Below are positions 15,957-40,965 of a DNA stretch of 64,000 nucleotides, one piece after another; the first letter of the stretch is position 1, and each line of letters opens with the position of its first letter. The position numbers and the translations under genes are program-made. Under the pieces are notes generated by a model. That model was not told the origin of the DNA. It did no database searches and saw nothing but the letters and a program-made list of their open reading frames with translations. The stretch is from an alpha proteobacterium IMCC14465 (lineage in GTDB: Bacteria > Pseudomonadota > Alphaproteobacteria > RS24), in the NCBI GenBank assembly GCA_000293845.2, contig ALYF01000010.1, forward strand, positions 1-64,000. The letters run 5' to 3'.

Positions 15957-16412
15957 TTATGGATAGTATCTGCTAATTGTATCTACGACACAAGCAGGGC
16001 GCTCCTCTCCCTCAATTTCGATTGTGATACGTAAGGTAGATTGGATGCCACCCTTCATTTCTTCGACTGTGATAAACTCACCAATCGCACGAATGCGTGC
16101 CCCGACTTTTACGGCATTCGGGAAGCGCGCCATGCCGACGCCATAATTGACGCCCATAGACATCTGCTTAACCTCAATTAGTTGAGGCAGGAATTTATTG
16201 GCGAGGGATAAAGTAAGATAGCCATGCGCGATGGTGCCGCCAAATGGCCCGTCCTTGGCTTTTTCTGCATCTACATGAATCCATTGATGGTCATCTGTGG
16301 CATCAGCAAACATATTGACCCGGTCTTGTTTCATCTCCACCCAGTCTGTCGGGCCGAGAGTGACGCCTTCCTGACCAAGAAGCTCTGCAGGTGTTTCATA
16401 TATTTTTACCAT
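15957..16412 (-). CDS. MaoC-like hot-dog hydratase
   Basis: A 151-residue single hot-dog protein. It shows the (R)-specific enoyl-CoA hydratase motif FADATDDHQWIHVD (Asp and His of the catalytic pair) followed by GPFGGTIAHGYLTLSL. It would hydrate 2-enoyl-CoA intermediates. The ATG at 16412 fits the family start; a longer frame to 16562 would add 50 unrelated residues overlapping the SDR gene. The gene follows the SDR at 16423 by 10 bp and ends the long minus-strand catabolic run. Confidence 0.85.
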   Translation of the reverse strand: MVKIYETPAELLGQEGVTLGPTDWVEMKQDRVNMFADATDDHQWIHVDAEKAKDGPFGGTIAHGYLTLSLANKFLPQLIEVKQMSMGVNYGVGMARFPNAVKVGARIRAIGEFITVEEMKGGIQSTLRITIEIEGEERPACVVDTISRYYP

Positions 16413-16422
16413 TTTTATTCCC

Positions 16423-17211
16423 CTAAGCGTGTTGGCTGGAAGCTGAAATAACTTCGCCTGTAAGATAAGATGAATAGTCACTGGCAAGGAACACCATAAT
16501 ATTTGCCTGCTCCCAAACTTCACTGCCGCGCCCAAACGCTTCCTTGGCTTCAAGCTCGGCAAGCAATTCTTTCGTTGTTACCTTGTGTAAAAACTCATGA
16601 ATAGCAAGGCTTGGTGCAACAGCATTTACCCGAACGCCAAATTCCGTGCCTTCAATTGCGGCACAGCGTGTCAGTGCCATAACGCCAGCCTTCGCAGCCG
16701 CATAATGTGCCTGTCCCTTTTGTGCGCGCCAACCCAGCACAGAGGCATTATTCACAATCACGCCTTGTTCTTGTTCTTTCATAATCTGCATAGCGGCGCG
16801 GTTAATTCTAAAGCAACCATTTAAAGTCACATCAAGAACCATAGACCACTGCTCATCGGTCATATCAATAATATCTGCTGTGCCACCAAGACCTGCATTG
16901 TTAATGACAATATCAATGCGCCCAAGTGATTTTTGGGCGGCGGCAAATAAAGCGTCCACATCATCTTGAACCGTGACATTGCATAAACCCGTATCGGGTT
17001 TTTGTCCGGTAACGGACTCTAGTCTCTCGGCGGCATCGGCAAGACGCCCTTCATGGATATCAGAAATAAAGACAGTCGCCCCTTCTTCGATGCATTTTCG
17101 CGCCGCAGCAAAGCCGATACCTGTGCCTGCGGCGGCGGTGATGACGACTGTTTTGCCAGCGAGGAGGTTATGCCCCTCGACATAGTTAGGGGGGAGTTTC
17201 AAATTAACCAT
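16423..17211 (-). CDS. SDR family dehydrogenase, IpdF-like
   Basis: A 262-residue SDR. The glycine motif is unusual: AAAGTGIG instead of TGxxxGxG. From memory this variant also occurs in IpdF-type SDRs (Rv3559c), the 5-hydroxy-HIP-CoA dehydrogenase of steroid ring C/D degradation. NNAGLGG and the catalytic Tyr-x3-Lys (HYAAAKAG) are present. The ATG at 17211 overlaps the stop of the acyl-CoA dehydrogenase gene by 8 bases; a longer frame to 17352 is a read-in artefact. Context with acyl-CoA dehydrogenases, thiolase and IpdC-like genes supports an IpdF role, but this is inference. Confidence 0.75.
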   Translation of the reverse strand: MVNLKLPPNYVEGHNLLAGKTVVITAAAGTGIGFAAARKCIEEGATVFISDIHEGRLADAAERLESVTGQKPDTGLCNVTVQDDVDALFAAAQKSLGRIDIVINNAGLGGTADIIDMTDEQWSMVLDVTLNGCFRINRAAMQIMKEQEQGVIVNNASVLGWRAQKGQAHYAAAKAGVMALTRCAAIEGTEFGVRVNAVAPSLAIHEFLHKVTTKELLAELEAKEAFGRGSEVWEQANIMVFLASDYSSYLTGEVISASSQHA

Positions 17212-18361
17212 TTGCACTGCCTCTTGGTTCTTTGGGCATGCCCAAAGCGCGTTCGGAAATAATATTCCGCTGAATTTGGTTCGTGCCTGCGTAAATTGTA
17301 TCTGCACGGGAGAATAAGAAGAGTTTTTGAAGGGGCGAAAGTTCGTCTTCAATTATCTCAGCATCTGCGCCGATAACATCCATTGCCAGTTCACCCAAAT
17401 CTCGATGCCATGTGGCCCAGAAGATTTTGGAGATATAACCTTCTTTGCTGGTGCTGCCATCTTGCGTACCGTTTAGCATGCGGAGCGCATTAAAGCGCAT
17501 GACTTTCAGTCCGGCATGCGCCTCGGCAATACGGCGGCGTAAGGTGGGGTCTTTGGCGCGTCCGTTTTCATTGGCAGTTTTAATGATGAGGTTCAGCTCA
17601 TTTTGGAACATCATTTGTTGACCAAGGGTCGATGCCCCGCGCTCAAAGCCCAGCAATGCCATGGCGATTTTCCAGCCTTCGCCGACATCACCAATCATAT
17701 TTGTGGCGTCGGTTTTAGCTTCCGTGAAATAGACCTCGTTAAATTCTGCCGTTCCGCTTATCTGGTGAATAGGGCGGATTTCTATGCCCGGCTGGTCAAG
17801 CTCGACCAATAAGAAAACAAGACCATCGCGGCCTTTCGAGCCTTCTTCAGCGCGTGCGATAACGAAAATCCAGTCGGATTCATGGGCGAGTGATGTCCAA
17901 ATTTTTTGACCATTAATCACCCAGCTGTCACCGTCTAAGCGGGCCTTGGTTTTAATGTTAGACAGGTCAGAGCCGGCATTGGGTTCGGAATAGCCTTGGC
18001 ACCATAATTCGGTGCCATTTTTGATGCCGGGTAGGAAGCGCTCTTTCTGCGCTTCTGAGCCATAAGCGAGTATTGTCGGTGCCATAAGTGTTTCACCAAT
18101 GTGACCAGCGCGTCCCGGACCACCATGGCGCGCATATTCTTCGTTAAATTCGACAAAATCCATCAAGCTTAAATCGCGCCCACCATATTCTTTGGGCCAT
18201 TGCAGACCAATCCATCCAGCTTCACCGAATTTTTGTTCCCATGCACGGCGTAATTCAGGGGAAGAGTCCTCATCTCCCGGACCACCACGCCAGCGGATTT
18301 GTTCAAATTCGCCGGTTAAGTTCTCCAGCATCCATTGGTTGAGTTCTTCGCGAATACTCAT
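17204..18361 (-). CDS. Acyl-CoA dehydrogenase, FadE large-type subunit
   Basis: A 385-residue acyl-CoA dehydrogenase with family motifs QGYSEPNAGSDLSNIKTKA, INGQKIWTSLAHESDW and IYAGTNQIQRNIISERALG. The position of the MCAD catalytic Glu (YEGT) is Ala. A Glu in GFERGAST lies where isovaleryl-CoA-type enzymes place their base. The ATG at 18361 follows AGGAGAGTGAT; longer frames only read into the next gene. It is adjacent to a second subunit gene (18363), the paired arrangement of heterotetrameric steroid acyl-CoA dehydrogenases in actinobacteria. Confidence 0.88.
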   Translation of the reverse strand: MSIREELNQWMLENLTGEFEQIRWRGGPGDEDSSPELRRAWEQKFGEAGWIGLQWPKEYGGRDLSLMDFVEFNEEYARHGGPGRAGHIGETLMAPTILAYGSEAQKERFLPGIKNGTELWCQGYSEPNAGSDLSNIKTKARLDGDSWVINGQKIWTSLAHESDWIFVIARAEEGSKGRDGLVFLLVELDQPGIEIRPIHQISGTAEFNEVYFTEAKTDATNMIGDVGEGWKIAMALLGFERGASTLGQQMMFQNELNLIIKTANENGRAKDPTLRRRIAEAHAGLKVMRFNALRMLNGTQDGSTSKEGYISKIFWATWHRDLGELAMDVIGADAEIIEDELSPLQKLFLFSRADTIYAGTNQIQRNIISERALGMPKEPRGSANG

Positions 18362-18362
18362 A

Positions 18363-19484
18363 TCACTCTCCTGAGATGTCTGTTGTGTTTTGCGCCAGAC
18401 CAATTTGATCTGCAAGCATTTGGAAACCGTCTTCGGAAGATGTAAAGAGGGCGCGGTTGCCGCGGGCGCGTTTGAAAAAATAGTGCAGGGGATATTCCCA
18501 TGTGAAGCCAATGCCGCCATGCATCTGAATGGCGTCGCCTGCAATTTTGAAATAAGCTTCGGCGGCATAATTTTTAGCAATTAATGAAGCTTCAAATTTT
18601 GCTACAGGGTCATCATCCAAATCAGGGGATGCGGCGAAATATGACGCCGAGCGTGCGCTTTCAAGAGCAATGAACATATCCGCGCATTTATGCTTTACCG
18701 ATTGGAAGCTTCCGATTTGTCTGCCGAATTGAACCCGTTGATTGGCATAATCCAGTGTCATATCCAAGCATCGTTGCCCGCCGCCGACACATTCTGCCGC
18801 CAAGGCGCCATGAGCAATCTGAAGAATTTGTGAAAAAGCGGTATTATCCGTTTTGCCTATCGCTTGCCCATCAGACAGGGCAACATTCTCAAAGAATACT
18901 TTTGCCTGACTTCGGGTCGGGTCTATGGAGGCAAAAGGCGTTACGCTTAACCCTGCCGTATTCGGGCTGTAGCCCGTCAACGCAACATTGTTATCTTCAT
19001 CATAAGCCGCCACCAAAATAAGATCCGCATGCGCTGCATCTGTTGCAGGTGAGACAACGCCGCTTAGTGCGCCATTTTTAAGTGTTAGTTGATTGCGACC
19101 ATCGAGAACAGAAATAATAATGTCGCCACTGGCAATCTTGCTCAGTAAATCCGCTTTGTCATCTTCGCTAGCAAAGGCCTCAATCATATCTGCGCCTAGC
19201 ACACAGGTTGAGAAAAATGGCGCACTGAAAAGCGTATAGCCGGTTTCTTCCATAATCACTGTGCGGCCTAACAGCCCCATGCCTGCGCCGCCATATTGTT
19301 CGGCTATGCTGATACCCGCCATGCCTTGATCACGGGCGAAGCCTTCCCAAGCGGTGCGGTCAAACCCCTGACCTTCCTTGGCGACACGGTGCAGGGTTTT
19401 CCCGCCATCTTCCCAATCAGACAACCAGCCTTTAACGGCCTCGCGGATCATGTCGTGATCTTCCTGAAATGGAAATGACGGCAT
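18363..19484 (-). CDS. Acyl-CoA dehydrogenase, partner subunit
   Basis: A 373-residue acyl-CoA dehydrogenase-like protein. It has the N-terminal helical domain (EDHDMIREAVKGWLSDW, FARDQGMAGISIAEQYGGAGMGL), a short beta domain and C-terminal RVQFGRQIGSFQSVKHKCADM and MHGGIGFTWEYPLHYFFKRAR motifs. It is shorter and more diverged than the partner at 17204, as expected for the second subunit of an alpha2beta2 enzyme. One base separates the two genes, so co-translation is likely. The specific CoA-ester substrate is not known. Confidence 0.85.
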   Translation of the reverse strand: MPSFPFQEDHDMIREAVKGWLSDWEDGGKTLHRVAKEGQGFDRTAWEGFARDQGMAGISIAEQYGGAGMGLLGRTVIMEETGYTLFSAPFFSTCVLGADMIEAFASEDDKADLLSKIASGDIIISVLDGRNQLTLKNGALSGVVSPATDAAHADLILVAAYDEDNNVALTGYSPNTAGLSVTPFASIDPTRSQAKVFFENVALSDGQAIGKTDNTAFSQILQIAHGALAAECVGGGQRCLDMTLDYANQRVQFGRQIGSFQSVKHKCADMFIALESARSASYFAASPDLDDDPVAKFEASLIAKNYAAEAYFKIAGDAIQMHGGIGFTWEYPLHYFFKRARGNRALFTSSEDGFQMLADQIGLAQNTTDISGE

Positions 19485-19489
19485 AGGCT

Positions 19490-20368
19490 TTAACTCCCGT
19501 AAACTTTTTGGGCTGGCGGTGTAATCTCGATTAACTCACGGAGTACCGCTTCGATTTCTTCTGGTTCGTAACGTGCTTCTTTATCTTTAATCGGGCCGGT
19601 TTTATAGCCGTCAGCAATAGATAGTTTTCCGCCAAAGGACTCGAAGCAATAGCCATTAATATCTGCTGACTGTGAACTGCAGAGATAGACAATGAGAGGG
19701 GCGACATTTGCCGGGTCGAATTTATCGAAACTGCCATCTTCAGGCACTTTCATCATTTCGGCAAAGACCTCTTCTGTCATACCTGTACGGCCTTGCGGGG
19801 CAACCGAATTTGCGGTGATGCCATAACGGGCCAGCTCGGCAGATTGGTTGAGGGTTAGTGTCAATATCCCACCCTTTGCGGCTGCATAATTGGTCTGCCC
19901 AACTGAACCTTGCAGTCCCGCGCCGGAACTGGTGTTGATAATCCGCGCATCGGGGTTCTCCCCATTTTTGGATTTTTCACGCCAGTATTTTGCGGCATGA
20001 GAGGAGAGGCAGAAATGCCCTTTTAGATGCACGCGTATGACAGCGTCCCAGTCATCCTCACTGAGCGAGGTGAACATGCGGTCTCTATTATTACCTGCAT
20101 TATTCACCACGGCATGCACATCGCCAAAACGTTCAATGGTGGCTGCTAGAATTTTGCCTGCCGAGGCGTAGTCCGTAATGTCATCGAGATTAACAATCGC
20201 CTGACCACCTGCATCATTAATGATTTTGACAGTGTCGGCGGCTGTGTCAGCATTAATGTCATTAACCACGACATTGGCTCCCGCCGCTCCGAGCGCGATG
20301 GCATAGGCGCGGCCTAAGCCGCCACCTGCGCCTGTGATGATTATTGTTCTATTGTCACATAAGCCCAT
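19490..20368 (-). CDS. SDR family 3-hydroxyacyl-CoA dehydrogenase-like protein
   Basis: A 292-residue SDR with TGAGGGLG, VNNAGNNRD and YAAAK motifs. A C-terminal extension of about 35 residues (KDKEARYEPEEIEAVLRELIE) resembles the hydroxyacyl-CoA dehydrogenase domain of type 2 multifunctional enzymes. The likely step is oxidation of a 3-hydroxyacyl-CoA before thiolysis. It lies 2 bp from the thiolase gene, which fits that role. Confidence 0.8.
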   Translation of the reverse strand: MGLCDNRTIIITGAGGGLGRAYAIALGAAGANVVVNDINADTAADTVKIINDAGGQAIVNLDDITDYASAGKILAATIERFGDVHAVVNNAGNNRDRMFTSLSEDDWDAVIRVHLKGHFCLSSHAAKYWREKSKNGENPDARIINTSSGAGLQGSVGQTNYAAAKGGILTLTLNQSAELARYGITANSVAPQGRTGMTEEVFAEMMKVPEDGSFDKFDPANVAPLIVYLCSSQSADINGYCFESFGGKLSIADGYKTGPIKDKEARYEPEEIEAVLRELIEITPPAQKVYGS

Positions 20369-20370
20369 AT

Positions 20371-21522
20371 TTAGAGCCTTTCAATGATGGTCACATTAGC
20401 CACACCACCACCTTCACACATGGTTTGCAGACCATAACGCCCGCCTGTGCGCTCAAGTTCATTGAGCAGGGTCGCCATGAGTTTTGTGCCCGTTGCGCCA
20501 AGTGGATGACCCAGCGCAATTGCGCCGCCATTCACATTGGTTTTCTCATGCGGATAGCTGGTTTCTTTCAGCCAAGCCATAGGCACCGGGGCAAAAGCCT
20601 CGTTAATCTCGACGAGGTCAATATCATCCAGTGACATGCCGGTTTTCTTCAACGCATATTCCGTAGCAGGAATAGGGGCTGTCAGCATGAAAATCGGGTC
20701 ATCACCGCGGACACTCATATGATGAATACGGGCGCGCGGCTTCAGATTATATTTTTTAACGGCATCTTCAGAAGCCAATAACATGGCTGATGCGGCATCG
20801 GATGTCTGACTGGAAATACCTGCATGGATGCGTCCGCCTTCTTGAATTGGCTCTAGGGTCGCCATTTTTTCCATTGTGGTATCGCGTCTGACGGTCTCGT
20901 CCATATCGAGGCCGTTAAACGACACAACCTCATTGTCAAAGCGGCCTTCATCAATTGCGTTTGCGGCTCTCTGGTGACTGGCGAGCGCATAAGCTTCCAT
21001 CTCTTCTCTGGAAATATCCCATTTTTCAGCAATCAATTCCGCGCCATGAAATTGTGAGACCGGTTCGTGACCATATCGTTTGACCCAGCCTTCTGAGCCT
21101 GAGAACGGATCGTTAAAGCCAAGAGGCTTAGCGAGAACCATGGCGGAACTAATTGGAATTTTTGTCATTGTCTGCACACCGCCAGCAATAACAAGGTCTT
21201 GAACGCCTGCCATAATGCCTTGCGCGGCGAAATGAACAGCTTGCTGCGATGACCCACATTGACGGTCAACGGTCACACCAGGAATGGCTTCGGGCAGTCC
21301 TGCCGTGAGCCAGGCTGTTCGCGCAATATTACCAGCCAGAGGTCCAACCGCGTCAAGACAACCAAAGACGACATCATCATAATCTTCTGCAGGAATATCA
21401 TGCTTATCAACCAGCGTGCGCAGAATAAAAGCGCCAAGATCAGCACCATGCACATCCGCAAGGGTCCCTTTGCGCCGACCTGTCGGTGTGCGGATTGCAT
21501 CAATAATGTAAGCTTCGCCCAT
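20371..21522 (-). CDS. Thiolase (acetyl-CoA acyltransferase), FadA5/FadA6-like
   Basis: A 383-residue thiolase. The nucleophile is C89 in [11 protein letters not shown]. The general-base His is in [11 protein letters not shown], and the second Cys is in MCEGGGVAN near the C-terminus; NEAFAP is also present. The ATG at 21522 follows TAAGGAGAAAATT; an upstream in-frame start at 21573 adds 17 residues without support. It would cleave 3-oxoacyl-CoA esters. In this cluster it is the candidate FadA6/FadA5 counterpart of ring or side-chain degradation. Confidence 0.9.
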
Positions 21523-21532
21523 AATTTTCTCC

Positions 21533-22519
21533 TTAATAACTAAAAGTTGTTCCCGGACCAAGTTCAGCATCATCCGCTAAAATCAGAGTTTCGAGAATAT
21601 TAATATGATGATTGCGGTCTCCCCATTCACCGCAAAGCGCCCATGCGCGTTTCATGAACATGTGCAAACTAACTTCAAACGTATAACCCATCCCACCATG
21701 AACTTGAATGGCTGTTTCTGCGGCTAACATCGCTGTATCTATGGCAGAGATTTTGGCTTGATGCACGCAGCGACCCATTTGTGAGGCGGCGAGTTGAACA
21801 ATCGGGCGGGTGAATTCAATTTGCGTATGTACATTCGCTAGCTGATGTTTAATGGCTTGAAACGACCCGATTTGCTTTCCGAATTGTTCACGGTCTTTGG
21901 CATAGTCCACAGACAGAGTGACCATGCGCTTTGACAGACCGCAGAGAAAGGCCGCATTGAGAATTGTGCCGCGTTGGTCAATCTCATCCAGCCCGTCGCC
22001 AGCCTGTGAAATTTTAAATAGCTTGCGTAGTGGGTCGATAGATTTCAACGGGGTGAGGGTAACATTATTTTTATCAATCAGACGCGCTTTGCCGCCTTCA
22101 CCAATCAGAAACATATCTGCTTCATCTGCATGGCTAACCATACCGGACAAACCGTTAACGGGCAGGACTTTAAGCGCGCCGGAAACCACGCCGTTTAATT
22201 CGTCCGTTGCCCCCATCTCGGCGAGAACAGGTACGCTAATGCCTGCCATGTCGATAAGCGGTTCAGTGAGAGCAACATTGCCGGCCATTTCAGCGATAGC
22301 CGCCATGACAGAGAAATCCTGTGCCAGCCCGCCATTATCTTCGGGCGCCATGAGACCCAATAGTCCCAATTCAGCAAAATTATCCCATAAAGAAGGTGTG
22401 GTATCAGATGTATCAGTCTCCAGAAACTGACGCATATACTCAACTGTATGCTCGCCGGTAAAGAAGCCGTCCGCCGCGTCAATGAGTTCTTGTTGGTCTG
22501 ACGTGTAAATTAAATTCAT
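21533..22519 (-). CDS. Acyl-CoA dehydrogenase, short partner subunit
   Basis: A 328-residue acyl-CoA dehydrogenase-like protein, short for the family (about 380). The N-terminal segment (YTSDQQELIDAADGFF, LGLLGLMAPEDNGGLAQDF) and C-terminal REQFGKQIGSFQAIKHQLANVH and VHGGMGYTFEVSLHMFMKRA motifs are intact, while the middle domain is reduced. The ATG at 22519 fits; the frame to 22681 reads into the neighbour. It is paired with the gene at 22530, probably as the second subunit of a heteromeric enzyme. Confidence 0.85.
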   Translation of the reverse strand: MNLIYTSDQQELIDAADGFFTGEHTVEYMRQFLETDTSDTTPSLWDNFAELGLLGLMAPEDNGGLAQDFSVMAAIAEMAGNVALTEPLIDMAGISVPVLAEMGATDELNGVVSGALKVLPVNGLSGMVSHADEADMFLIGEGGKARLIDKNNVTLTPLKSIDPLRKLFKISQAGDGLDEIDQRGTILNAAFLCGLSKRMVTLSVDYAKDREQFGKQIGSFQAIKHQLANVHTQIEFTRPIVQLAASQMGRCVHQAKISAIDTAMLAAETAIQVHGGMGYTFEVSLHMFMKRAWALCGEWGDRNHHINILETLILADDAELGPGTTFSY

Positions 22520-22529
22520 GCCGATGCTC

Positions 22530-23687
22530 TTATTGCCTTGGAAGACCGAGAACGCGCTCGGCAAGAATATTGCGTTGAATTTCATTTGTGCCGGCATAGA
22601 TAGGACCGGCAAGGCTGAACATATAACCATCCAACCATCTGCCATTCTCAATCGCGCCGTCGCCTTCTTCCAGTTCGGCATGCATGCCCATAATTGTCAT
22701 GGCTGTGCGGTGCATGGCACGGTCCATCTCAGACCAGAAAATCTTATTTGCGCTGGCCTCGGAGGATATGGACGCGCCGCTATCAACCTGCGCGACAAGG
22801 GCATACGTGGCGGCGGTGAATCTTTCCGTATCGCCCCATGCCTGAAGGACTTGCTCTTTAATGCCGGAAGAAAGACGATTGGCGTTTTGCTTGTATAGTT
22901 TCACCAGCCTTGCGGCGGCGGCCTGAAAGCGTGCGGGCGAGCGAAGCAAAAGACCTCTCTCAAATCCAGCCGTTGCCATGGCCACGCCCCAGCCGCCATT
23001 TTCAGGACCTAGAAGATTCTCGACGGGGACACGCACCTCGTCAAAAAATAGCTCGGCAAAACCGGGGTCGCCATCCAATTGGGCAATCGGGCGCACTGTC
23101 AGGCCGGGGCTGTCGAGTGGCACGAGGATTTTAGATAGGCCGTGATGTCGGCTGCTTTCAGGGTCGGTTCTGAACAGGCCAAAACACCAATCGGCAAATA
23201 CAGCGCGTGATGACCAGATTTTCTGTCCGGAGATGACATATTCATCGCCATCGCGCACAGCCTTACTTCGGATAGCTGCCATATCGCTGCCTGCGCCGGG
23301 TTCTGACCATGCCTGCGCCCAGATTTCATCTCCCGCCGCCATAGGCTTCAAGAAGCGTTCTTTCTGTGCGTCTGTGCCATATTCCATAATGGTCGGGCCG
23401 AGCAAGAAAATACCATTTTGGCTCACCCTTAAAGGCGCGTCAGCGCGGTAATATTCTTCTTCAAAAATCAACCAATCGGTGAGGCTACATCCGCGCCCAC
23501 CAAATTCTTCAGGCCATGTGACCATGCCCCAATTTCCGGCATGAAGCTTGCGCTCCCAGTCGCGGTGAAGGTCAAACCCTTCTTGCGTATCGAGAGAGGG
23601 GAGGCGGTCATTCGGCACATTGGCACTCAGCCAGTCTCTGACTTCCTGGCGAAAGCCGTTTTGTTCATCTGAAAATACAGCGTCCAT
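22530..23687 (-). CDS. Acyl-CoA dehydrogenase, FadE large-type subunit
   Basis: A 385-residue acyl-CoA dehydrogenase with WSEPGAGSDMAAIRSKAV, ISGQKIWSSRAVFADW and IYAGTNEIQRNILAERVLGLP motifs. As in the protein at 17204, the MCAD-type catalytic Glu is Ala (YAGT) and AGFERG offers the alternative Glu. Its stop is 10 bp before the start of the partner subunit at 22519, and its ATG overlaps the crotonase stop by one base. Part of an apparent single transcript. Confidence 0.88.
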   Translation of the reverse strand: MDAVFSDEQNGFRQEVRDWLSANVPNDRLPSLDTQEGFDLHRDWERKLHAGNWGMVTWPEEFGGRGCSLTDWLIFEEEYYRADAPLRVSQNGIFLLGPTIMEYGTDAQKERFLKPMAAGDEIWAQAWSEPGAGSDMAAIRSKAVRDGDEYVISGQKIWSSRAVFADWCFGLFRTDPESSRHHGLSKILVPLDSPGLTVRPIAQLDGDPGFAELFFDEVRVPVENLLGPENGGWGVAMATAGFERGLLLRSPARFQAAAARLVKLYKQNANRLSSGIKEQVLQAWGDTERFTAATYALVAQVDSGASISSEASANKIFWSEMDRAMHRTAMTIMGMHAELEEGDGAIENGRWLDGYMFSLAGPIYAGTNEIQRNILAERVLGLPRQ

Positions 23688-24445
23688 TATTCATCCCCAA
23701 AATCGGCAGCCTTGCCGGTCTCAACAAAAGCGTCACGGGATTTCTGGCTGTCCTCATGCATATACATTTCAAAAGTAAAGCCCTGTTCCCAGCGATAGGA
23801 TGCATCCACGTCAAAAGGCTCAATGCCGTTTAATGCCTGTTTAGCAATCCGAAGGGCGTCGCGGCTCTTGCCAGCAACAAGCGCGGCAAGTTTATGTGCT
23901 TCTTCTTCCAGTTTGTCGCGCGGAACAACATTTTCTATTCCGCCAAGGCGATGCATTTCTTGTGCTGTGATTTGCCCGCCAGTTAAGAATGCCGAGCGCA
24001 CTTTTGTCAGCGGTATCATTCTTTGTAAATGTGACGCGCCGCCCATAGCACCACGGTCAATTTCGGGTAATGAGAAAAAGCAATCATCTGATGCAATAAC
24101 AATATCTGATGCACCACACATGCCGATGCCGCCGCCAATCACAAAACCATGCGGCGCAGAAATCACCGGCATCTCGCAATGGTGAATGGCTTTAAAAGTT
24201 TCATAATTGCCTTTATTAACCTCGACAATTGCTGCGCTGTCTGCGGCAAGTTCCTTAATATCAACACCGGCGCAAAAGCCTTTACCTTCAGCACGGATAA
24301 GAAGAACGCGCACATCTTGTCGCTTGCCTAAATCTGTGATGATGGCGGGTAGTTCGTTCCATGTCTGGCTGTTAAACGCATTGACGGGTGGGTGATCAAG
24401 CACTAGCTCGGCAATATTGTCGGCGACATTTACATTGATAGGCAT
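23687..24445 (-). CDS. Enoyl-CoA hydratase/isomerase family protein (EchA20 candidate)
   Basis: A 252-residue crotonase. The oxyanion-hole segments are GKGFCAGVDIKEL and FVIGGGIGMCGASDIVIAS. In the actinobacterial HIP pathway a crotonase (EchA20) hydrolyses ring D in a cluster with ipdC and fadE genes; this gene directly precedes an IpdC-like gene in the same order of functions. Plain hydratase activity is the alternative. The start overlaps the following gene by one base. Confidence 0.8.
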   Translation of the reverse strand: MPINVNVADNIAELVLDHPPVNAFNSQTWNELPAIITDLGKRQDVRVLLIRAEGKGFCAGVDIKELAADSAAIVEVNKGNYETFKAIHHCEMPVISAPHGFVIGGGIGMCGASDIVIASDDCFFSLPEIDRGAMGGASHLQRMIPLTKVRSAFLTGGQITAQEMHRLGGIENVVPRDKLEEEAHKLAALVAGKSRDALRIAKQALNGIEPFDVDASYRWEQGFTFEMYMHEDSQKSRDAFVETGKAADFGDE

Positions 24446-24448
24446 GCT

Positions 24449-25519
24449 TTAATTTCCACTCTTTGATTTAATATTTGTGTTTTGGAGGCGCTCTTGTGCA
24501 TCGGCCATAATCGTGTCGATAATATCGCCAGCACTCGGCAGGTCGTTAATCAAACCGGCAACTTGACCGCTCGGTAACACACCTTTATCGGGATTGCCGT
24601 CAACCATGGCCTTTTGAATGATAATCGGCGCATTCGCTGCCATCAGAGTTTGACCAAGAGTGAGGTCTGTGCCGGATGCCATTTTCCATGCCGTCTTAAC
24701 GGTCTCAAGCATGCTCATTTCCGACTGCGCTTTGAATTTAAATCCATTCACCATGGCGCGGAAAAGCATGCCAAGCGATGACGCATTTTCGAGGTCTTGC
24801 AAAGTTGAATTCATCACCATGCGCTGGGGCAGGCCATCAAGTTTTGTAGAGACGGGAATTTTTGTGACTTCGGCATCTAGATAAGCCTGTTTGGTCGCCG
24901 GTGGCACAGGGCTTTCAGCGCTCATCATAAAGCGTGTACCCATAGCAATCCCGTCAGCACCAAAGGCAAGTGCAGCGGCAAGACCCCGCCCGTCGCGGAA
25001 ACCACCACAGGCCACAACAGGGACATCAAGATTATAATCCAGCACTTGCGCCAGCAGAAGCCAGGTTGGGGTATAGCCCGTATGACCACCACCTTCTTGC
25101 CCCTGACAAACCAAAATATCCGCGCCCATTTCAACTGCTTTAGGGGCGTGCTTTCCAGCGCCGATTGTTGGTACGCATTTAATCCCAGCGGCTTTCACCT
25201 TGTCGATAACTTTTGCTGAAGGCGCACGCCCATAGGAAACTGCGGCGACTTTATAATCGATACACATATCGATGATTTTATCTACATCCTTCTGGAAGGA
25301 GTGAAAGTTAACGCCGAACGGATGGTCACCCGATTGCTTGATTGATTTAATTTCGGCTTCACATTCTTCGGCACTCATGACGGCGGCGGCAAGAAAACCA
25401 AATCCGCCACCACGAATAGAGGCTTTCACGAGTTGCGAGGTCGCAACCCACCCCATCGCTGTTTGAATGACGGGCGCTTGGCATCCCAGTGCTTTTGTGA
25501 GGCGAGTTTCAAGGGGCAT
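24449..25519 (-). CDS. Nitronate monooxygenase-family flavoprotein, IpdC-like
   Basis: A 356-residue FMN protein of the 2-nitropropane dioxygenase family, with VIQTAMGWVATSQLV at the start, GVNFHSF, and the FMN/phosphate-binding QGQEGGGHTGY and GFRDGRGLAAALAFGADGIAMGTRF segments. IpdC of steroid degraders belongs to this family and reduces a HIP-derived enoyl-CoA. The neighbours (crotonase, acyl-CoA dehydrogenases, HsaCDA) strongly favour IpdC over nitronate oxidation. The ATG at 25519 is used; the upstream part of the frame overlaps the next gene. Confidence 0.8.
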   Translation of the reverse strand: MPLETRLTKALGCQAPVIQTAMGWVATSQLVKASIRGGGFGFLAAAVMSAEECEAEIKSIKQSGDHPFGVNFHSFQKDVDKIIDMCIDYKVAAVSYGRAPSAKVIDKVKAAGIKCVPTIGAGKHAPKAVEMGADILVCQGQEGGGHTGYTPTWLLLAQVLDYNLDVPVVACGGFRDGRGLAAALAFGADGIAMGTRFMMSAESPVPPATKQAYLDAEVTKIPVSTKLDGLPQRMVMNSTLQDLENASSLGMLFRAMVNGFKFKAQSEMSMLETVKTAWKMASGTDLTLGQTLMAANAPIIIQKAMVDGNPDKGVLPSGQVAGLINDLPSAGDIIDTIMADAQERLQNTNIKSKSGN

Positions 25520-26435: not shown

Positions 26436-26498
26436 ATTTTAGCCCTTTCCGATATTCTATATGACGACACTTAATTTGGTAGTGTCCTAATTGGTTAA

Positions 26499-29439: not shown

Positions 29440-29493
29440 TTTCATGATCCTTTTTGTCTCGACTGTCTGTTTAGAATTAAAGAATATCAAATA

Positions 29494-31204: not shown

Positions 31205-31981
31205 ATGAAGGATTTAAGCGGACAAACAATTATCGTCACGGGTGGTGGCAAAGGGATTGGTAGGGGAATCACAACTGCATTTGCCAATGCAGGCGCGCAT
31301 GTCGCAATTTGTGGACGCTCTGCGCCGGATGCATTTGACGGTGATATTGCTGACCGAATTCATTTTATCGAGCTTGATATTAGAGAAGCGGAAAACGCGA
31401 CGACGCTGATTGATTTTGCGGCAGGTCTCGGGCATCCGGTGACAACGCTCATTAATAATGCCGGCGGTGGCCCTCCGGTTGCGTCGGCTGAGGCCAGCGC
31501 GTCATTAACAGAAAAAGTCATTAAGCTAAATTTGCTGGCCCCGATATATTTATCGCAAGCGGCTTATAATTATATGCGCGCGGATCAGGTCAATGGCTCT
31601 ATTATTAATATTTCAAGCGTCTCTGCGACACGCTCCTCGCCCGGCACGGTCGCTTATGGCGCCGCGAAAGCTGGGCTGATTAATGTTACAACATCGCTGG
31701 CAATGGAATGGGCGCCGGATGTTCGTGTTAATGCCATTATTGTCGGGCTTGTTAAAACCGAGGCTTCCGAGGCTCATTATGGTGGTGAGAAGGGTATGGC
31801 TTATCTGGCCGATAATTTGCCGATGAAACGCATGGGGCAGCCTCAAGATATTGCTCATGCCTGTCTGTTTTTGGCTGATACCGATTCGGCTTATGTTTCC
31901 GGTGCGTGTTTGGAAGTGTTTGGTGGTGGTGAGCCACCTAGCTTTTTGAAAATCACGCAGGATGCTGCCGCGCAAAAATAG
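31205..31981 (+). CDS. SDR family oxidoreductase
   Basis: A 258-residue classical SDR with TGGGKGIG, INNAGGG and YGAAK motifs. GGAGAATTAA precedes the ATG. It is transcribed divergently from the FadD3-like gene and ends 12 bp from the converging Old Yellow Enzyme gene. In steroid clusters SDRs of this kind oxidise hydroxyacyl-CoA or hydroxysteroid intermediates; the substrate is not resolved. Confidence 0.8.
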   Translation: MKDLSGQTIIVTGGGKGIGRGITTAFANAGAHVAICGRSAPDAFDGDIADRIHFIELDIREAENATTLIDFAAGLGHPVTTLINNAGGGPPVASAEASASLTEKVIKLNLLAPIYLSQAAYNYMRADQVNGSIINISSVSATRSSPGTVAYGAAKAGLINVTTSLAMEWAPDVRVNAIIVGLVKTEASEAHYGGEKGMAYLADNLPMKRMGQPQDIAHACLFLADTDSAYVSGACLEVFGGGEPPSFLKITQDAAAQK

Positions 31982-31992: not shown

Positions 31993-33075
31993 TTAGAGAG
32001 ATGGATAATCAGTATAGCCTTTTTCGCCAGGCGTGTAGAGCGTGCTGCGTTCCATCTCTGCGAGCGGTGCGTCGGTTTCGAGCCGATGAACAAGGTCGGG
32101 ATTGGAAACAAATAATCTGCCAAATGACACTGCGCTCGCAATGCCGCTCTCTATTATTTTTTGTGCCGCGTCTTTATCAAAACTTTCATTCAAAATAAGT
32201 GGCCCGCTAAAATGCTTTTGAGCCAGCGCGATATTATCAACGCCGCGATTAATTTTCGGATCCATGCGAATGACATGCAAATAGGCAAGGCTCTTTGGTG
32301 AGACCGCATCCAGCAAGGCCGCAAAAGTCTCCGCCGGATTATCATCATGTAAATCATTGAACGGATTGCCCGGGCAAATGCGCATGCCGACCCGTCCTGC
32401 GCCGGCGCGATTAATCATGGCGTCAAGAACATCCAACGTGAAGCGTAGGCGCTTTTCCAGAGACCCGCCATAAGCATCGGTGCGCTGATTGGTGCCGGTT
32501 GATAAAAATTGCGCGGGGAGGTAGCCGCTGGTTGCGTGTAACTCGACACCATCGAAACCAATATTAATGGCGTTTTGAGTGGCGTTGGCGAAGTCGTTAA
32601 TTGTTTGCTCGATATCTTCTAAGGTCATTTCTTCCGGCACGTCATGGGCAACCATACCATCCGTATCGGTATACATTTTTCCTGCCGCTTGACGTGCTGA
32701 AGGTGCGAGAGTACGCGCTGTGTCTGATTTATTTGCCGCCGCCGCAACACGCCCGCAATGCATGATTTGCATGACGATTTTACCGTTATTCTCATGCACT
32801 TTCCGGCACACATTTTCCCATGCTGCAATTTGCTTTTCGGACACAATGCCGGGTGTGCGGACATATCCCTTGCCATCATAGCTGGGATAAACGCCCTCGG
32901 TAATGATGAGGCCTGCTGACGCGCGTTGTGCGTAATAATCAACCGTCATCTGTGTTGGTTCGTCATCCTGCCCGGCGCGACTGCGTGTCATGGGCGCCAT
33001 GACGATACGGTTATTTATGTCAATATCACCGAGACGGTGAGCTTCAAAAAGTATCGTTGGCTTCATGGTGTTCAT
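31993..33075 (-). CDS. Old Yellow Enzyme family ene-reductase
   Basis: A 360-residue FMN TIM-barrel protein of the NemA/OYE class. Visible motifs are NRIVMAPMTRSRA at the start, MQIMHCGRVA, VELHATSGYLPAQFLS, TDAYGGSLEKRLRF and GRLFVSNPDLV. The family reduces activated C=C bonds with NAD(P)H, and OYE-type enzymes can reduce 3-keto-ene steroids. Two possible starts (33075 and 33066) differ by three residues. It is followed upstream by a SnoaL-like gene 16 bp away. Confidence 0.85.
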   Translation of the reverse strand: MNTMKPTILFEAHRLGDIDINNRIVMAPMTRSRAGQDDEPTQMTVDYYAQRASAGLIITEGVYPSYDGKGYVRTPGIVSEKQIAAWENVCRKVHENNGKIVMQIMHCGRVAAAANKSDTARTLAPSARQAAGKMYTDTDGMVAHDVPEEMTLEDIEQTINDFANATQNAINIGFDGVELHATSGYLPAQFLSTGTNQRTDAYGGSLEKRLRFTLDVLDAMINRAGAGRVGMRICPGNPFNDLHDDNPAETFAALLDAVSPKSLAYLHVIRMDPKINRGVDNIALAQKHFSGPLILNESFDKDAAQKIIESGIASAVSFGRLFVSNPDLVHRLETDAPLAEMERSTLYTPGEKGYTDYPSL

Positions 33076-33091
33076 GTGGGGGGTACCTTAA

Positions 33092-33724
33092 TTAACGTAT
33101 TTTGATTTTCGGGTCCGGTTGCCCCGCACGCATTGTTTTTAGAAATTCACCCCAAGGTGCAGGGGTGGCAACTTCGGGGGTGATGCCATCCTTGGGTGGA
33201 TTTTTCCAGAACTTTTCCCATGAAGGAAATAAATCATGAAAGGCGCCGTCATAGCTATCGCGATCTGGCCAGCGCATTTTCTGCTCGCCAATAGGTGGCT
33301 TATTTAAATCTGTGGCATACCAATAACAAGGCAGACGACGCCGGAAATACCAATGCCCGTCAATGCGTTCATAATTATCCCAGTAAAGCATTTGCATAAT
33401 GACCCACTCATCGCCGCCATCACTTGGTGTCTCATGTTCATTTTTAGAGTAAAGCACCCCGTGTGCGTGGTCAGGGTCGTCAAATTCAATGATGTGATTG
33501 CCGACATGGTGAGACGTGCCGGTAAATTGAAGTCTCAATGTATCATCAAGCCATTGCTTAAGATGAGCGCGCCCGGTGGCGTCGCGGCTGACACGAATAT
33601 CTTCGGCAAATAAATTCACATGCGCGTCAAGGTCCCGCATATCGAGGGAGAGAGAATATTTGCTGACCAGCTGACGAATTTCTTCAAGTGACTCCAGTCG
33701 GTCAATTCTTTCTTCAAGTGTCAT
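33092..33724 (-). CDS. SnoaL-like domain protein
   Basis: A 210-residue NTF2-like protein. It starts with a coiled helix (LEERIDRLESLEEIRQLVSKYSLSLDMRDLDAHVNLFAEDI) typical of SnoaL-4 proteins, followed by GTSHHVGNHIIEFDDPDHAHGVLY and RRRLPCYWY. AAGGGGAGAAAG precedes the ATG. Such proteins include dehydratases and ring-modifying enzymes in steroid and aromatic clusters. It shares a divergent promoter with the flavin reductase at 33855. The function is unassigned. Confidence 0.75.
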   Translation of the reverse strand: MTLEERIDRLESLEEIRQLVSKYSLSLDMRDLDAHVNLFAEDIRVSRDATGRAHLKQWLDDTLRLQFTGTSHHVGNHIIEFDDPDHAHGVLYSKNEHETPSDGGDEWVIMQMLYWDNYERIDGHWYFRRRLPCYWYATDLNKPPIGEQKMRWPDRDSYDGAFHDLFPSWEKFWKNPPKDGITPEVATPAPWGEFLKTMRAGQPDPKIKIR

Positions 33725-33795
33725 TCTTTCTCCCCTTTAGGCATAGTCTTTCTAAAAAAGCATATTTCGGTTGCGATGACAAAGTAGTTGATGCA

Positions 33796-33826
33796 GTTTC
33801 GAACTTCATTTAGTTCATGTTCAAAC
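33796..33826. promoter_or_regulatory. Inverted repeat in promoter of the flavin reductase gene
   Basis: GTTTCGAAC (33796-33804) and GTTCAAAC (33819-33826) are near-perfect inverted arms, ending 28 bases before the GTG start of the reductase. A shorter GAAC/GTTC pair lies within. It may be an operator for the divergent pair at 33724 and 33855. It differs from the TTACGCAA and CTGAATAA elements elsewhere in the cluster. Confidence 0.4.
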
Positions 33827-33854
33827 TATTTAGTTAAAAGCGAAAGGTAAAGCC

Positions 33855-34808
33855 GTGACCACTGATCAAAAAGAATTAAGAAATGCTTTGGGGCAATTCG
33901 CTACGGGCGTAACGGTTGTCACGACCTCGGCAGAAGATAATGAACCAGTTGGCGTCACCGCCAGCAGTTTTAATTCTGTTTCTCTCGACCCGCCTTTGGT
34001 GCTGTGGTCACTCTCGAAAACAGCGAAATCCATGCCGGCTTTTGAAACCTCCGGTGGTTTTAATGTGCATATTCTCGCGGCGCATCAGACTGATATTTCT
34101 AATCGTTTCGCCAGTTCTAAAGGCGATAAGTTTGAAGGTTTAGACCACAATAGCTGCGATATGGGCTTTCCGCTTCTGGATGAATATGCCGCGCTTTTCC
34201 GGTGTAAAACGCATTATCAATATGAGGGCGGAGATCATATTATTTTCGTCGGTGAGGTTGTCGAGTATCAAACCAACCCGCTACCGGTGTTAATATTTCA
34301 CGGCGGTAAATATGCGGATGCGCGCCCGAAATTGAATAAAGAAGATACCGATGAAGCGGTGGATTTGCACAGCGGTAAGTTTACTGAAAACTATTTGCTT
34401 TATCTTATTTCCAGAGCGCATTTCCAAACATCGCTCCCAGTTCGTCAATCCTATATTGAGCAAGGTCTCAGCGACCAAGAATTTTTCTGCCTCTCGCTTC
34501 TATCCATGAATGGGGGATTGTCGCCGGAAGCCATCTCAAATCGATTGGCACATACAGGGCATGCGCCCGATAGTGAGATATTTGAACGCCTCGCCAGAAA
34601 AGAGCTTATTTCTCAACAGGGCGGTGAAGCAGGTGACATCTCACTCACTGAAACAGGTCAAAAAGTCTTTATCGAACTTCTCGCCCAGTCCAAGGCGCTG
34701 GAAGAGCAGCTTACAAAACATTTCTCAGAAGATGAGTTAGAGTCTGCTGTTCGCTTTATGAAAAAAATTATCGACATTACCGGTTCTGAAATTCCAGAAC
34801 TTTGGTAA
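33855..34808 (+). CDS. Flavin reductase fused to MarR-like domain (HsaB-type partner)
   Basis: A 317-residue two-domain protein. Residues 1-165 are a flavin reductase (LGQFATGVTVVTT, GVTASSFNSVSLDPPLVLWSL, DHIIFVGEVVEY). Residues about 175-305 look like a MarR winged helix (LSDQEFFCLSLLSMNGGLS, FERLARKELISQ, DISLTETGQKVF). From memory, the C1 reductase of p-hydroxyphenylacetate hydroxylase in Acinetobacter baumannii has the same layout and size, its MarR-like domain acting as an autoinhibitor relieved by the phenolic substrate. Here it would feed reduced flavin to the HsaA-like oxygenase. The GTG start follows AAAGGTAAAGCC. Confidence 0.85.
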   Translation: MTTDQKELRNALGQFATGVTVVTTSAEDNEPVGVTASSFNSVSLDPPLVLWSLSKTAKSMPAFETSGGFNVHILAAHQTDISNRFASSKGDKFEGLDHNSCDMGFPLLDEYAALFRCKTHYQYEGGDHIIFVGEVVEYQTNPLPVLIFHGGKYADARPKLNKEDTDEAVDLHSGKFTENYLLYLISRAHFQTSLPVRQSYIEQGLSDQEFFCLSLLSMNGGLSPEAISNRLAHTGHAPDSEIFERLARKELISQQGGEAGDISLTETGQKVFIELLAQSKALEEQLTKHFSEDELESAVRFMKKIIDITGSEIPELW

Positions 34809-34813
34809 TTGAT

Positions 34814-35572: not shown

Positions 35573-35584
35573 TTTTAACTCCTG

Positions 35585-37336: not shown

Positions 37337-37345
37337 AATGTCGGA

Positions 37346-38224: not shown

Positions 38225-38323
38225 ATGACCCTCCATGATTAATTTTGGTAGTAACCTATCAGAGAGAATGACTTGTGCAATCATTTTGGTGCGGTAATTT
38301 GAAATCTCTTTCTGTCTGGCTAT

Positions 38324-38381
38324 CTGAATAATCTATGTGTAGGGTTAAAAAAAAATTGCTGAATAAATAATGATTATTCAG
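38324..38381. promoter_or_regulatory. Three CTGAATAA boxes in SDR/KstD-like divergent promoter
   Basis: CTGAATAA occurs at 38324-38331 and 38359-38366, and as the inverted TTATTCAG at 38374-38381. The last two form a perfect 8-base palindrome around a 7-base centre. The start-to-start distance of the direct copies is 35 bases. This is a strong operator candidate for a dimeric regulator controlling the genes at 38224 (minus) and 38459 (plus). Confidence 0.55.
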
Positions 38382-38458
38382 TCTTTCTTAGAGGTTATGG
38401 GATGGCTTTGGGTTTCAGGAATAACTTTGGGGATAAGAAATGAATAAAGGGTGAGGGT

Positions 38459-40156
38459 ATGGAGCAAATAAAACAAAACTGGTTTTCGTCTGTAGAAGCG
38501 CCAATGCAAGTTTCAGGTCGGGATGCCGTGTCTTGGGATGCATCGACTGATTTGGTGGTTGTGGGTTTTGGCGGCGCCGGTGTGGCGACGGCTCTGCAAA
38601 GTCTTGATAATGGGTTATCCGTTATTGCCCTCGATAAATTCGCTGGTGGTGGCGCGACAACAATTAACGGCGCTGTGGTCTATGCCGGGTCGGGTACCTC
38701 TGTTCAAAAAGAAGCCGATATTTCGGATACAGCAGATAATATGTACAATTATCTGAAACAGGAAACCGAAGATATTGTCTCGGATGAAACGCTGAAAGAT
38801 TTTTGCGATACCAGCCCTGAAATGATTAACTGGTTGCAAGAAAAGGGTGTCAAATTCGGCGCGACGGTTTGGCATAAAAAAACGTCTTATCCCGGGCCGG
38901 AATATTTCGTTTATCACAGCGATAACTCGCTCGCTATGAGCTATAAAAAACATGCTACCCCTGCCGCACGCGGGCATAGAGCCTATGTGCCGATTGAAGA
39001 AGGCCGCAAGGCGACCAATCTCGGCTATTCGATTTTTAATCCCCTTAAGCAATCTGCGCTCGATAAGGGGCTGTCACTGGAAACCTATCATGAAGTGCGC
39101 CAGCTTGTTGTGAATGACAATCAGGAAGTTCTTGGTGTCATGGCGCTTTATTTTGATGATGAAAAACTGCTGAAAAAATATCAAAAACTGAAAAAGCGTG
39201 CGGAGCGTCTCCTGATGGTTTTGCCGCCTATTTTGCCGGGTTATACTTTTTTCGCCAGACGCGCCATGGCCGTTTTAGAAAAAGCCAAAGCATTAGAAGC
39301 AAAAAGAAGCCGGAAAATGATTGAGGCCAAAAAGGGGGTCATGCTTTCAGCCGGTGGCTTTATTTATAATGCCGATATGGTGAACCATTATGCTCCCAAA
39401 TATAATGCCAGCCTGCCTCTTGGTACTGAGGGGGATGACGGTTCGGGCATTCGCCTCGGGCAGTCTGTCGGTGGTAAAGCCGATAATATGGATTGTATTT
39501 CTGCTTGGCGCTTCATTAATCCGCCGCTTTCTTTTGGGCGGGGTTTTATCGTCAATAAGCAAGGCAAGCGTTTTATTGACGAGTTGGTTTACGGTGCGAC
39601 GCTGGGCGTTGAGATGGTTGAAAACCAAGACGGCAAGGGCTGGCTCATTCTAGATAAGAAGCTTGTGAAGGCCGCGCTTGAAGAAGTCAGTGGCGGAAAA
39701 GCCTTGAACTTCCAACGTGATTTGGCGCGATTGAATGTCTGGTTTGCAGCGGTCAAATCCCCGACAATTGAGGGGCTAGCTGACAAATTATCATTACCTG
39801 CGCACGCGCTTAAGGCGCAGCTTGAGACATATAACAAAGCGGCACGCGCACAAAATGGCAGTGACGAATTTGAAAAATCCGATGATGATTTGGTTGAAAT
39901 CACTGGGCCATTTTACGGCATTGATATTAGTCTTGATGCAAAACTTTTCCCCTGTCCGGCATTGACGCTTGGCGGTCTCAAAATTAACGAGGCAACGGGA
40001 CAGGTGCTGGATGATAAGGGCGGGGTGGTTAAAGGGCTTTATGCTTCCGGTCGTAATGCGATTGGTGTGTCATCCAAAAATTATGTGAGCGGGCTATCCG
40101 TCGCTGATTGTATTTTTTCTGGCCGCCGAGCGGCGCAACATATATCTGGTCATTAG
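38459..40156 (+). CDS. FAD-dependent 3-ketosteroid dehydrogenase-like flavoprotein
   Basis: A 565-residue protein of the fumarate reductase/KstD flavoprotein family. The FAD motif VVGFGGAG lies near residue 32, and GGGATTINGAVVYAG follows. The C-terminal SGRNAIGVSSKNYVSGLSVADC contains Y542, near where KstD proteins place a catalytic Tyr, though the motif is not identical. Residues about 230-290 hold a Lys/Arg-rich insertion with a hydrophobic middle (LLMVLPPILPGYTFFA), possibly for membrane contact. Location in a steroid-like cluster favours delta-1 or delta-4 dehydrogenation of 3-ketosteroids. The precise reaction is uncertain. Confidence 0.75.
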   Translation: MEQIKQNWFSSVEAPMQVSGRDAVSWDASTDLVVVGFGGAGVATALQSLDNGLSVIALDKFAGGGATTINGAVVYAGSGTSVQKEADISDTADNMYNYLKQETEDIVSDETLKDFCDTSPEMINWLQEKGVKFGATVWHKKTSYPGPEYFVYHSDNSLAMSYKKHATPAARGHRAYVPIEEGRKATNLGYSIFNPLKQSALDKGLSLETYHEVRQLVVNDNQEVLGVMALYFDDEKLLKKYQKLKKRAERLLMVLPPILPGYTFFARRAMAVLEKAKALEAKRSRKMIEAKKGVMLSAGGFIYNADMVNHYAPKYNASLPLGTEGDDGSGIRLGQSVGGKADNMDCISAWRFINPPLSFGRGFIVNKQGKRFIDELVYGATLGVEMVENQDGKGWLILDKKLVKAALEEVSGGKALNFQRDLARLNVWFAAVKSPTIEGLADKLSLPAHALKAQLETYNKAARAQNGSDEFEKSDDDLVEITGPFYGIDISLDAKLFPCPALTLGGLKINEATGQVLDDKGGVVKGLYASGRNAIGVSSKNYVSGLSVADCIFSGRRAAQHISGH

Positions 40157-40179
40157 GTCAATTTTAAAGGGAGAGAGTT

Positions 40180-40965
40180 ATGAAACTTAAAGATAAAACA
40201 GCAATTATTTCAGGTGGTTCCAGAGGGATTGGTGGCGCTTGTGTTGAACTTTTCGCGCAAGAAGGTGCGAATGTCATTATTGGCGATGTGCTGGAAGCAG
40301 ACGGTCAAGCGCTGGCGGATAGGCTGGGCGATAAAGTGACTTTCAAAAAGCTTGACGTCACGCAAGAAGAAAGCTGGGCTGACGCTGTTGCAACCGGCGA
40401 AACGCAATTTGGCGGTGTTGATATTTTGGTTAACTGCGCTGGCATTTTGACCTTTAATCATGTTGCCGATTTGACCGCTGAAGAAGTGCGCAAGACGCTC
40501 GATGTTAATCTTTACGGTACTATTATCGGGACACAGGCTGTTATTCCCGCCATGCGCAAGCGCGGTGCGGGTTCGATTGTGAATATTTCCTCTACCGACG
40601 GTCTTATCGGTTCCAATGCGCATGCGGCTTATATTGCCTCTAAATGGGGTGTGCGCGGTTTCACCAAAGCGGCAGCGCTGGAATTGGGTTTGGAAAATAT
40701 TCGTGTGAACTCTATTCATCCCGGCGGTGTTGATACACCGCTTGCCAACCCAATGGGCGAGGAGCGTGAGGAATATAATAAACGCTTTGTAACCTTCGCG
40801 GCTCAGCGGGCATGTGATCCAAAAGAAATCGCACAAGGCGTGCTCTTCTTTGCCGGTGATGATGGCAGCTATTGCATGGGATCAGAGCTTGCGATTGATG
40901 GCGGTTTAACTGCGGGTCTTTACTATTATGGTCACCCGGGTGCGCCGGATATCAAATTTGGCTAA
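40180..40965 (+). CDS. SDR family hydroxysteroid dehydrogenase-like protein
   Basis: A 261-residue SDR with SGGSRGIG, VNCAGIL and YIASK motifs. The GSELAIDGGLTAG ending and the overall sequence resemble 3-alpha/20-beta-hydroxysteroid dehydrogenases. AAGGGAGAGAGTT precedes the ATG, and it follows the KstD-like gene by 23 bp, probably in one transcript. Oxidation of a steroid hydroxyl to the ketone used by the flavoprotein is the likely role, inferred from family and position. Confidence 0.8.
   Translation: MKLKDKTAIISGGSRGIGGACVELFAQEGANVIIGDVLEADGQALADRLGDKVTFKKLDVTQEESWADAVATGETQFGGVDILVNCAGILTFNHVADLTAEEVRKTLDVNLYGTIIGTQAVIPAMRKRGAGSIVNISSTDGLIGSNAHAAYIASKWGVRGFTKAAALELGLENIRVNSIHPGGVDTPLANPMGEEREEYNKRFVTFAAQRACDPKEIAQGVLFFAGDDGSYCMGSELAIDGGLTAGLYYYGHPGAPDIKFG

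Follow-up and report, generated by a model that had tools for sequence, protein, structure and literature searches.

A predicted aerobic steroid-ring degradation cluster, with ipdAB at a separate locus, in an alphaproteobacterium of the marine PS1 clade

Results

Gene content and order of the cluster

The window analysed here is the whole 64,000-nucleotide stretch corresponding to positions 1-64000 of contig C10 (GenBank ALYF01000010.1, assembly GCA_000293845.2) of the alphaproteobacterium IMCC14465, whose genome measures 1.92 Mb and is 99.75% complete. On its minus strand, reading from 29445 to 15957, lie 14 co-directional genes in the order hsaA-hsaD-hsaC-scdN-ipdC-echA20-fadE31-fadE32-fadA6-scdE-fadE33-fadE30-ipdF-scdD, homologs of genes for steroid-ring degradation by the 9,10-seco route and for degradation of HIP, the remnant of steroid rings C and D, with a candidate fadD3 in front of them. 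An original prediction, made from the sequence alone, had placed such a cluster at 15957-40965, and every gene that it named, including the HsaA-, FadD3-, IpdC-, crotonase-, thiolase- and paired FadE-like genes, is an intact open reading frame (ORF); the residues that it had singled out in HsaC and HsaD are likewise all in place. Protein identities were assigned with NCBIfam and Pfam models, solved-structure relatives, tblastn searches with the window proteins, and trees, while the names fadE30-33, ipdF, scdD, scdE and scdN follow cluster position. SDR stands for short-chain dehydrogenase/reductase, and cut-offs are those of the models.

15957-16412, minus: MaoC-type hydratase, scdD position (PF01575, 77.6 bits; 55% to the same-position Burkholderia gene)
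16423-17211, minus: SDR, ipdF/scdG position (PRK07831, 425 bits, cut-off 336; position of CNB-2 1289 in PMC5380842 Table 1)
17204-18361, minus: acyl-CoA dehydrogenase, fadE30 position (53% to the same-position Burkholderia gene)
18363-19484, minus: acyl-CoA dehydrogenase, fadE33 position (best model IpdE2, 171.6 bits, below its cut-off of 450)
19490-20368, minus: SDR of Rv3548c/scdE type (PRK07791, 397 bits, cut-off 373)
20371-21522, minus: thiolase FadA6/scdF (PRK07801, 698 bits, cut-off 591)
21533-22522, minus: acyl-CoA dehydrogenase, fadE32/scdM2 position (family model and cluster position)
22530-23687, minus: acyl-CoA dehydrogenase, fadE31/scdM1 position (62% to the same-position Burkholderia gene)
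23687-24445, minus: EchA20/scdY ring-D hydrolase (PRK07938, 343 bits, cut-off 260)
24449-25519, minus: IpdC/scdK flavoprotein, FabK-like in family models (identity gap and tree)
25524-26435, minus: crotonase, scdN position (PRK08290, 405 bits, cut-off 280; 62% to the same-position Burkholderia gene)
26436-26498: 63-bp gap at the site of ipdAB in Comamonas, Burkholderia, Vibrio and Hellea
26499-27401, minus: HsaC/TesB extradiol dioxygenase with H146, H213 and E264 (model, structure and tree)
27437-28270, minus: HsaD-type C-C hydrolase with S111, D228 and H256 (model, structure and tree)
28270-29445, minus: HsaA flavin-dependent monooxygenase, oxygenase component (HsaA structures as top match, 242 and 235 bits)
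29579-31108, minus: FadD3/scdA HIP-CoA ligase candidate (640 bits, cut-off 657)

The reference for this order is the tesB/scd cluster of Comamonas CNB-2 (genes 1275-1289; PMC5380842 Table 1, PMC4810484 Table 1 and PMC13101464 Fig. 1), which from hsaC/tesB to scdD has the same genes in the same sequence as here, except that ipdAB (scdL1L2) directly follows hsaC in Comamonas and lies here on another contig, beside a delta1-3-ketosteroid dehydrogenase (delta1-KstD). Because 14 co-directional genes follow the order of a cluster characterised by experiment, the arrangement is not a product of chance. In Comamonas TA441, hsaA-hsaD and fadD3 stand at the opposite end of a 120-kb region, whereas here they directly adjoin the front of the cluster. 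The same order, apart from the missing ipdAB, was recovered by tblastn in a Burkholderia arboris replicon and in Hellea metagenome-assembled genomes (MAGs), and its first part also in a Vibrio alfacsensis plasmid. The Hellea clusters (L022-L025) hold the nearest HsaA, HsaC, HsaD and IpdC outside the genus (65-74% identity), with fadD3, hsaA and hsaD upstream in the same order and, at three of the four loci, the divergent SDR as well; unlike the window, they retain ipdAB in place, and in three of the four some 2.8 kb of other DNA separates hsaD from hsaC.

With the actinobacterial KstR/KstR2 regulons (Mycobacterium tuberculosis, Rhodococcus jostii) the window largely shares the enzyme set, while gene order differs and HsaD falls on a different branch. 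The original description of actinobacterial content in a different order thus gives way to the published proteobacterial order minus ipdAB. KstR and KstR2 were not identified among the window regulators (TetR-type at 7869-8555 and Lrp-type at 40972-41992, neither examined further), and the ORF list contains no regulator gene adjoining the HIP genes.

Phylogeny of the cluster proteins

The trees, which are small (14-27 rows) and unrooted, with un-annotated loci labelled by gene context, group HsaC, HsaA and IpdC with homologs from steroid clusters and apart from biphenyl, naphthalene and nitronate enzymes. The grouping named as refuting the original prediction, of HsaACD and IpdC homologs with biphenyl, terpene or nitronate enzymes, was thus not obtained. 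In the HsaC tree the steroid set is separated from BphC and NahC (support 99/96), PS1 and Hellea proteins stand together (100/99), and one long pRHL1 row, labelled aromatic beforehand, falls among actinobacterial HsaC. The HsaA tree unites the proteobacterial steroid-cluster proteins (100/99), and in the HsaD tree the window protein joins proteobacterial steroid-cluster hydrolases (100/100), apart from actinobacterial HsaD, BphD and MhpC. IpdC-position proteins are set apart from nitronate monooxygenases (100/100) in a tree built without a long-branch Lactobacillus outgroup, with which it was unresolved (74/61); in agreement, the window IpdC is 44-52% identical to IpdC-position proteins versus at most 33% to other nitronate monooxygenases.

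Lone HsaA-like genes occur in Novosphingobium (L063:15001-16098 and L062:15001-16098), away from hsaC; they lie within the united group of the HsaA tree and, at 56% identity, are closer to the window HsaA than all others save the PS1 and Hellea ones.

In the profile search suggested with the original prediction, most HIP-pathway proteins score above their own NCBIfam cut-offs (FadA6, PRK07791, PRK07831, EchA20, PRK07856 and PRK08290), and HsaA-D and FadD3 fall below theirs.

Candidate ring A and B enzymes and other genes outside the operon

Further genes of the window lie beyond fadD3:

31205-31981, plus: SDR of Rv3549c type (PRK07856, 324 bits, cut-off 255), not ipdF
31993-33075, minus: old-yellow-enzyme-family reductase, kept in the genus cluster (PF00724, 254 bits)
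33092-33724, minus: SnoaL-fold protein (PF13577)
33855-34808, plus: HsaB-type flavin reductase with a C-terminal extension (HsaB model 136 of 230 bits; HPA reductase model 207 of 340)
38459-40156, plus: 3-ketosteroid dehydrogenase, closest to the delta4-(5alpha) type
42012-43142, minus: Rieske oxygenase with a KshA_C domain (100 bits; motifs), secondary KshA candidate
44024-45736, minus: acyl-CoA ligase, possibly a steroid side-chain ligase (steroid-24-oyl-CoA synthetase model, 366 bits of 750)
50340-51416, plus: Rieske oxygenase, best KshA candidate (KshA_C 188 bits; KshA structures 151 and 131 bits)

Three assignments of the original prediction hold in part. An IpdF-like gene is present at 16423-17211, and the SDR beside fadD3 is instead of Rv3549c type, since it belongs to PRK07856 like the gene adjoining echA20 in Tsukamurella, to whose product it is 46% identical. 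The nearby KstD-like protein is a ketosteroid dehydrogenase, but it matches the delta4-(5alpha)-dehydrogenase 4AT0 with 205 bits versus 84 or less for delta1 enzymes; the delta1-KstD proper lies at C3:826002-827684 (best family PRK12844, 517 bits, short of the curated cut-off of 789). KshA candidates do occur in the window, where three Rieske proteins carry a KshA_C domain, and the strongest, at 50340-51416, lies outside the interval originally delimited. It has the Rieske ligands C58/H60 and C87/H90, separated by a longer spacer, and its closest relative among those fetched from outside the genus (54%) is a Rieske gene adjoining hsaC- and hsaA-like genes in Sphingobium herbicidovorans. The KshA call was made with the KshA_C domain and KshA structures rather than with the profiles of PMC4810484.

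A separate ipdAB locus

No ipdAB lies between hsaC and scdN, which are only 63 bp apart. The single CoA-transferase match in the genome leads to C3:828.7-830.4 kb, where two ORFs match solved IpdAB with 274 and 151 bits versus 96 and 50 for glutaconate CoA-transferase, and upstream of them lie a TIM-barrel-like protein and the delta1-KstD. The order KstD-TIM barrel-IpdA-IpdB is kept across the genus genomes (one locus ends inside ipdA), with IpdA and IpdB 89-96% identical, and the hsaC-scdN junction is likewise conserved. In the IpdA tree Hellea groups with another alphaproteobacterium (G078) and the PS1 genus stands apart, with modest support (88/90), in contrast with the HsaC tree, where PS1 and Hellea are sisters. 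The difference suggests that ipdAB disappeared from the operon and that a divergent copy serves in its place. As support in the IpdA tree is modest, and as PS1-Hellea divergence of FadE32 and FadE33 is about equal to that of IpdA, replacement by transfer is only suggestive.

A rhodopsin-like protein, noted by eye, is encoded downstream of ipdAB on C3 (L047:17067-17822), as in many marine surface bacteria.

HsaE, HsaF and HsaG on other contigs

HsaG (327 bits, over its cut-off) is found at the starts of contigs C1 and C11, the two sequences being 97% identical over 652 bp, and HsaF C-termini lie at the end of C11 and the start of C2. As these pieces sit at contig ends, the assembly apparently broke off at a repeated hsaGF segment; two genus mates (G001 and G002) carry a full-length HsaF (574 bits). 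An HsaE-type hydratase scores 307 bits, below its cut-off.

The hsaG and hsaF repeat fragments bound C11, a contig of 48 kb that holds an operon for phenol/catechol meta-cleavage, a module for sugar utilisation and an integrase-like fragment; it could be an island or a plasmid.

Host and distribution

The nearest named relatives of the window HsaC come from the Rhodobiaceae MAGs UBA6963 and CPC66 and from 'PS1 clade bacterium MED-G50' (93-94% identity), with one uncultured alphaproteobacterium at 95%, and on this basis the host can be placed in the marine PS1 clade of the Alphaproteobacteria. HsaC and IpdA were each found in six of six genus genomes and IpdC in five, the sixth genome being 56% complete; IpdC was found in none of 22 other family genomes. 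The three proteins occur together in the genus and are missing from its other sampled family members. Among 385 evenly drawn alphaproteobacteria, 8 genomes of 4 genera have IpdC at E below 1e-60. The simplest reading is a gain of the pathway in the genus ancestor, and loss elsewhere in the family may be an alternative. Base composition of the cluster (48.8% G+C) is near that of the remaining window (47.1%) and gives no sign of recent foreign origin.

Discussion

A predicted route for steroid-ring degradation

Taken together, the window and the rest of the genome very probably encode aerobic 9,10-seco/HIP degradation of steroid rings, and profile models, gene order and trees strongly support the proposal of such catabolism in an alphaproteobacterium. 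The full aerobic route originally proposed does not follow from the window by itself, as delta1-KstD, IpdAB and HsaEFG are missing there; because these were located elsewhere in the genome, a route for ring degradation becomes plausible. As stated in PMC4810484, the 9,10-seco pathway is recognised by at least six of eight key ring-degrading enzymes, including KshA and HsaC; HsaC, KshA, HsaA, HsaD and delta1-KstD were found here. Of the HIP pathway, fadD3, ipdC, echA20, ipdF, fadA6 and fadE30-33 were found in the window and ipdAB outside it.

By analogy with characterised relatives, on which each reaction is modelled for genes whose presence, order and phylogeny are given above, delta1-KstD from C3 and KshA (50340-51416) would open ring B and aromatise ring A. 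HsaA, together with HsaB, would hydroxylate the resulting phenol, HsaC would cleave ring A, and HsaD would release HIP plus a hexadienoate, the latter to be broken down by HsaE, HsaF and HsaG from other contigs. FadD3 is predicted to form HIP-CoA, FadE30/33, ScdD, ScdE and FadA6 to perform a first beta-oxidation, IpdF and IpdC to prepare ring D, EchA20 to open it, IpdAB from C3 to open ring C, and FadE31/32 with ScdN to act on the remaining chain.

Several observations weigh against this reading. HsaA (326 bits), HsaC (260), HsaD (153), HsaB (136) and delta1-KstD all score under curated equivalog cut-offs, as is expected of divergent proteobacterial forms in the case of HsaA-D. HsaD resembles its actinobacterial counterpart no more than it resembles BphD or MhpC; its family is clear and its subtype, HsaD versus BphD, less so, being assigned from gene context. 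KshB was not identified in this analysis, and HsaF is fragmentary in this assembly. Finally, as C11 carries a catechol 2,3-dioxygenase (417 bits) and, by eye, genes resembling a multicomponent phenol hydroxylase, HsaE, HsaF and HsaG may serve a phenol meta-cleavage route there instead of, or besides, steroids.

The pathway might be partial, or transform steroids by co-metabolism without growth, with IpdAB, KstD1 and HsaEFG unlinked to the window cluster and hsaF broken at contig ends, with no intact copy in this assembly. We regard this as unlikely: the split arrangement is conserved across the genus, IpdA and IpdB at the identities given above, and two genus mates have a complete hsaF, both of which favour a pathway in use under selection.

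A different natural substrate for the same ring chemistry, either another polycyclic terpenoid (hopanoid, diterpenoid or triterpenoid) or a molecule resembling steroids, appears quite improbable. It would fit the sub-cut-off HsaA-D scores and the several Rieske proteins, P450, CoA ligases and thiolase/lipid-transfer proteins at C3 370-430 kb, but the set FadD3-IpdC-EchA20-IpdAB-FadA6 is defined by HIP, the steroid C/D-ring remnant (PMC5380842), the HIP genes of the window keep the order known for that operon, and delta1-KstD and KshA-type enzymes are encoded in the genome.

A chance neighbourhood of biphenyl-type aromatic (HsaACD) and generic nitronate/fatty-acid (IpdC) enzymes is scarcely credible, although the BphC model scores slightly above the HsaC model on HsaC (270 versus 260 bits), BphD and HsaD structures match HsaD equally well, and folds and chemistry are shared with biphenyl meta-cleavage enzymes: it is rejected on the evidence of the trees, which part HsaC, HsaA and IpdC from BphC, NahC and nitronate monooxygenases, and by the identity gaps. 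The top solved match of HsaC is moreover 2ZI8/2ZYQ, which we take to be mycobacterial HsaC deposited under the BphC name, gene order is shared with characterised steroid clusters, and no ring-hydroxylating (biphenyl-type) dioxygenase alpha/beta pair was seen adjoining the HsaACD genes.

For steroid-ring catabolism in the genus as a whole, we tentatively propose that these marine PS1-clade bacteria, with small genomes of about 1.2-2.0 Mb, gained it as a trait of the entire genus that family relatives lack, kept a Hellea-like operon and swapped the in-operon ipdAB for a divergent, delta1-KstD-linked one, so that the ring-C-opening step would have been split off in an ocean steroid scavenger; we would put this scenario somewhat short of an even chance.

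The pathway itself is already known, and the host lineage is little documented. Genome and metagenome surveys, as presented in PMC5790920 and PMC4810484, predicted alphaproteobacterial steroid degraders, marine and unclassified ones among them, and the latter reports the pathway in SAR86 genomes. The PS1 clade is unnamed in the main texts of both, and its genomes may be among the 'unclassified alphaproteobacteria' of PMC4810484 Table S1. Literature searches returned no paper for steroid degradation with Rhodobiaceae and no title on the topic for the PS1 clade or Parvibaculales with steroid. It is poorly established which organisms turn over steroids in the sea. With the pathway present across the genus, this pelagic lineage of small genomes would be a concrete candidate degrader, comparable to SAR86.

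Other features of the window and genome

Promoter and terminator scans gave results no better than shuffled sequence, and Rfam and tRNA searches of the window returned no matches. At 8575-11508, next to a TetR regulator, a sulfatase adjoins an alkylsulfatase-like metallo-beta-lactamase, a candidate for the release of sulfated steroids. The adjacent stretch 11505-15926 and the C3 locus L042:2803-6773 both carry genes for a DUF3604-like protein with PpiC-like and HupE/UreJ-like genes, a duplicated neighbourhood recognised largely by eye. A further region, C3:370000-432000 (L042-L045), contains many Rieske oxygenases and SDRs, several TonB receptors, CoA ligases, a P450, and thiolase/lipid-transfer and OB-fold proteins, and is possibly devoted to steroid side-chain or other polycyclic catabolism.

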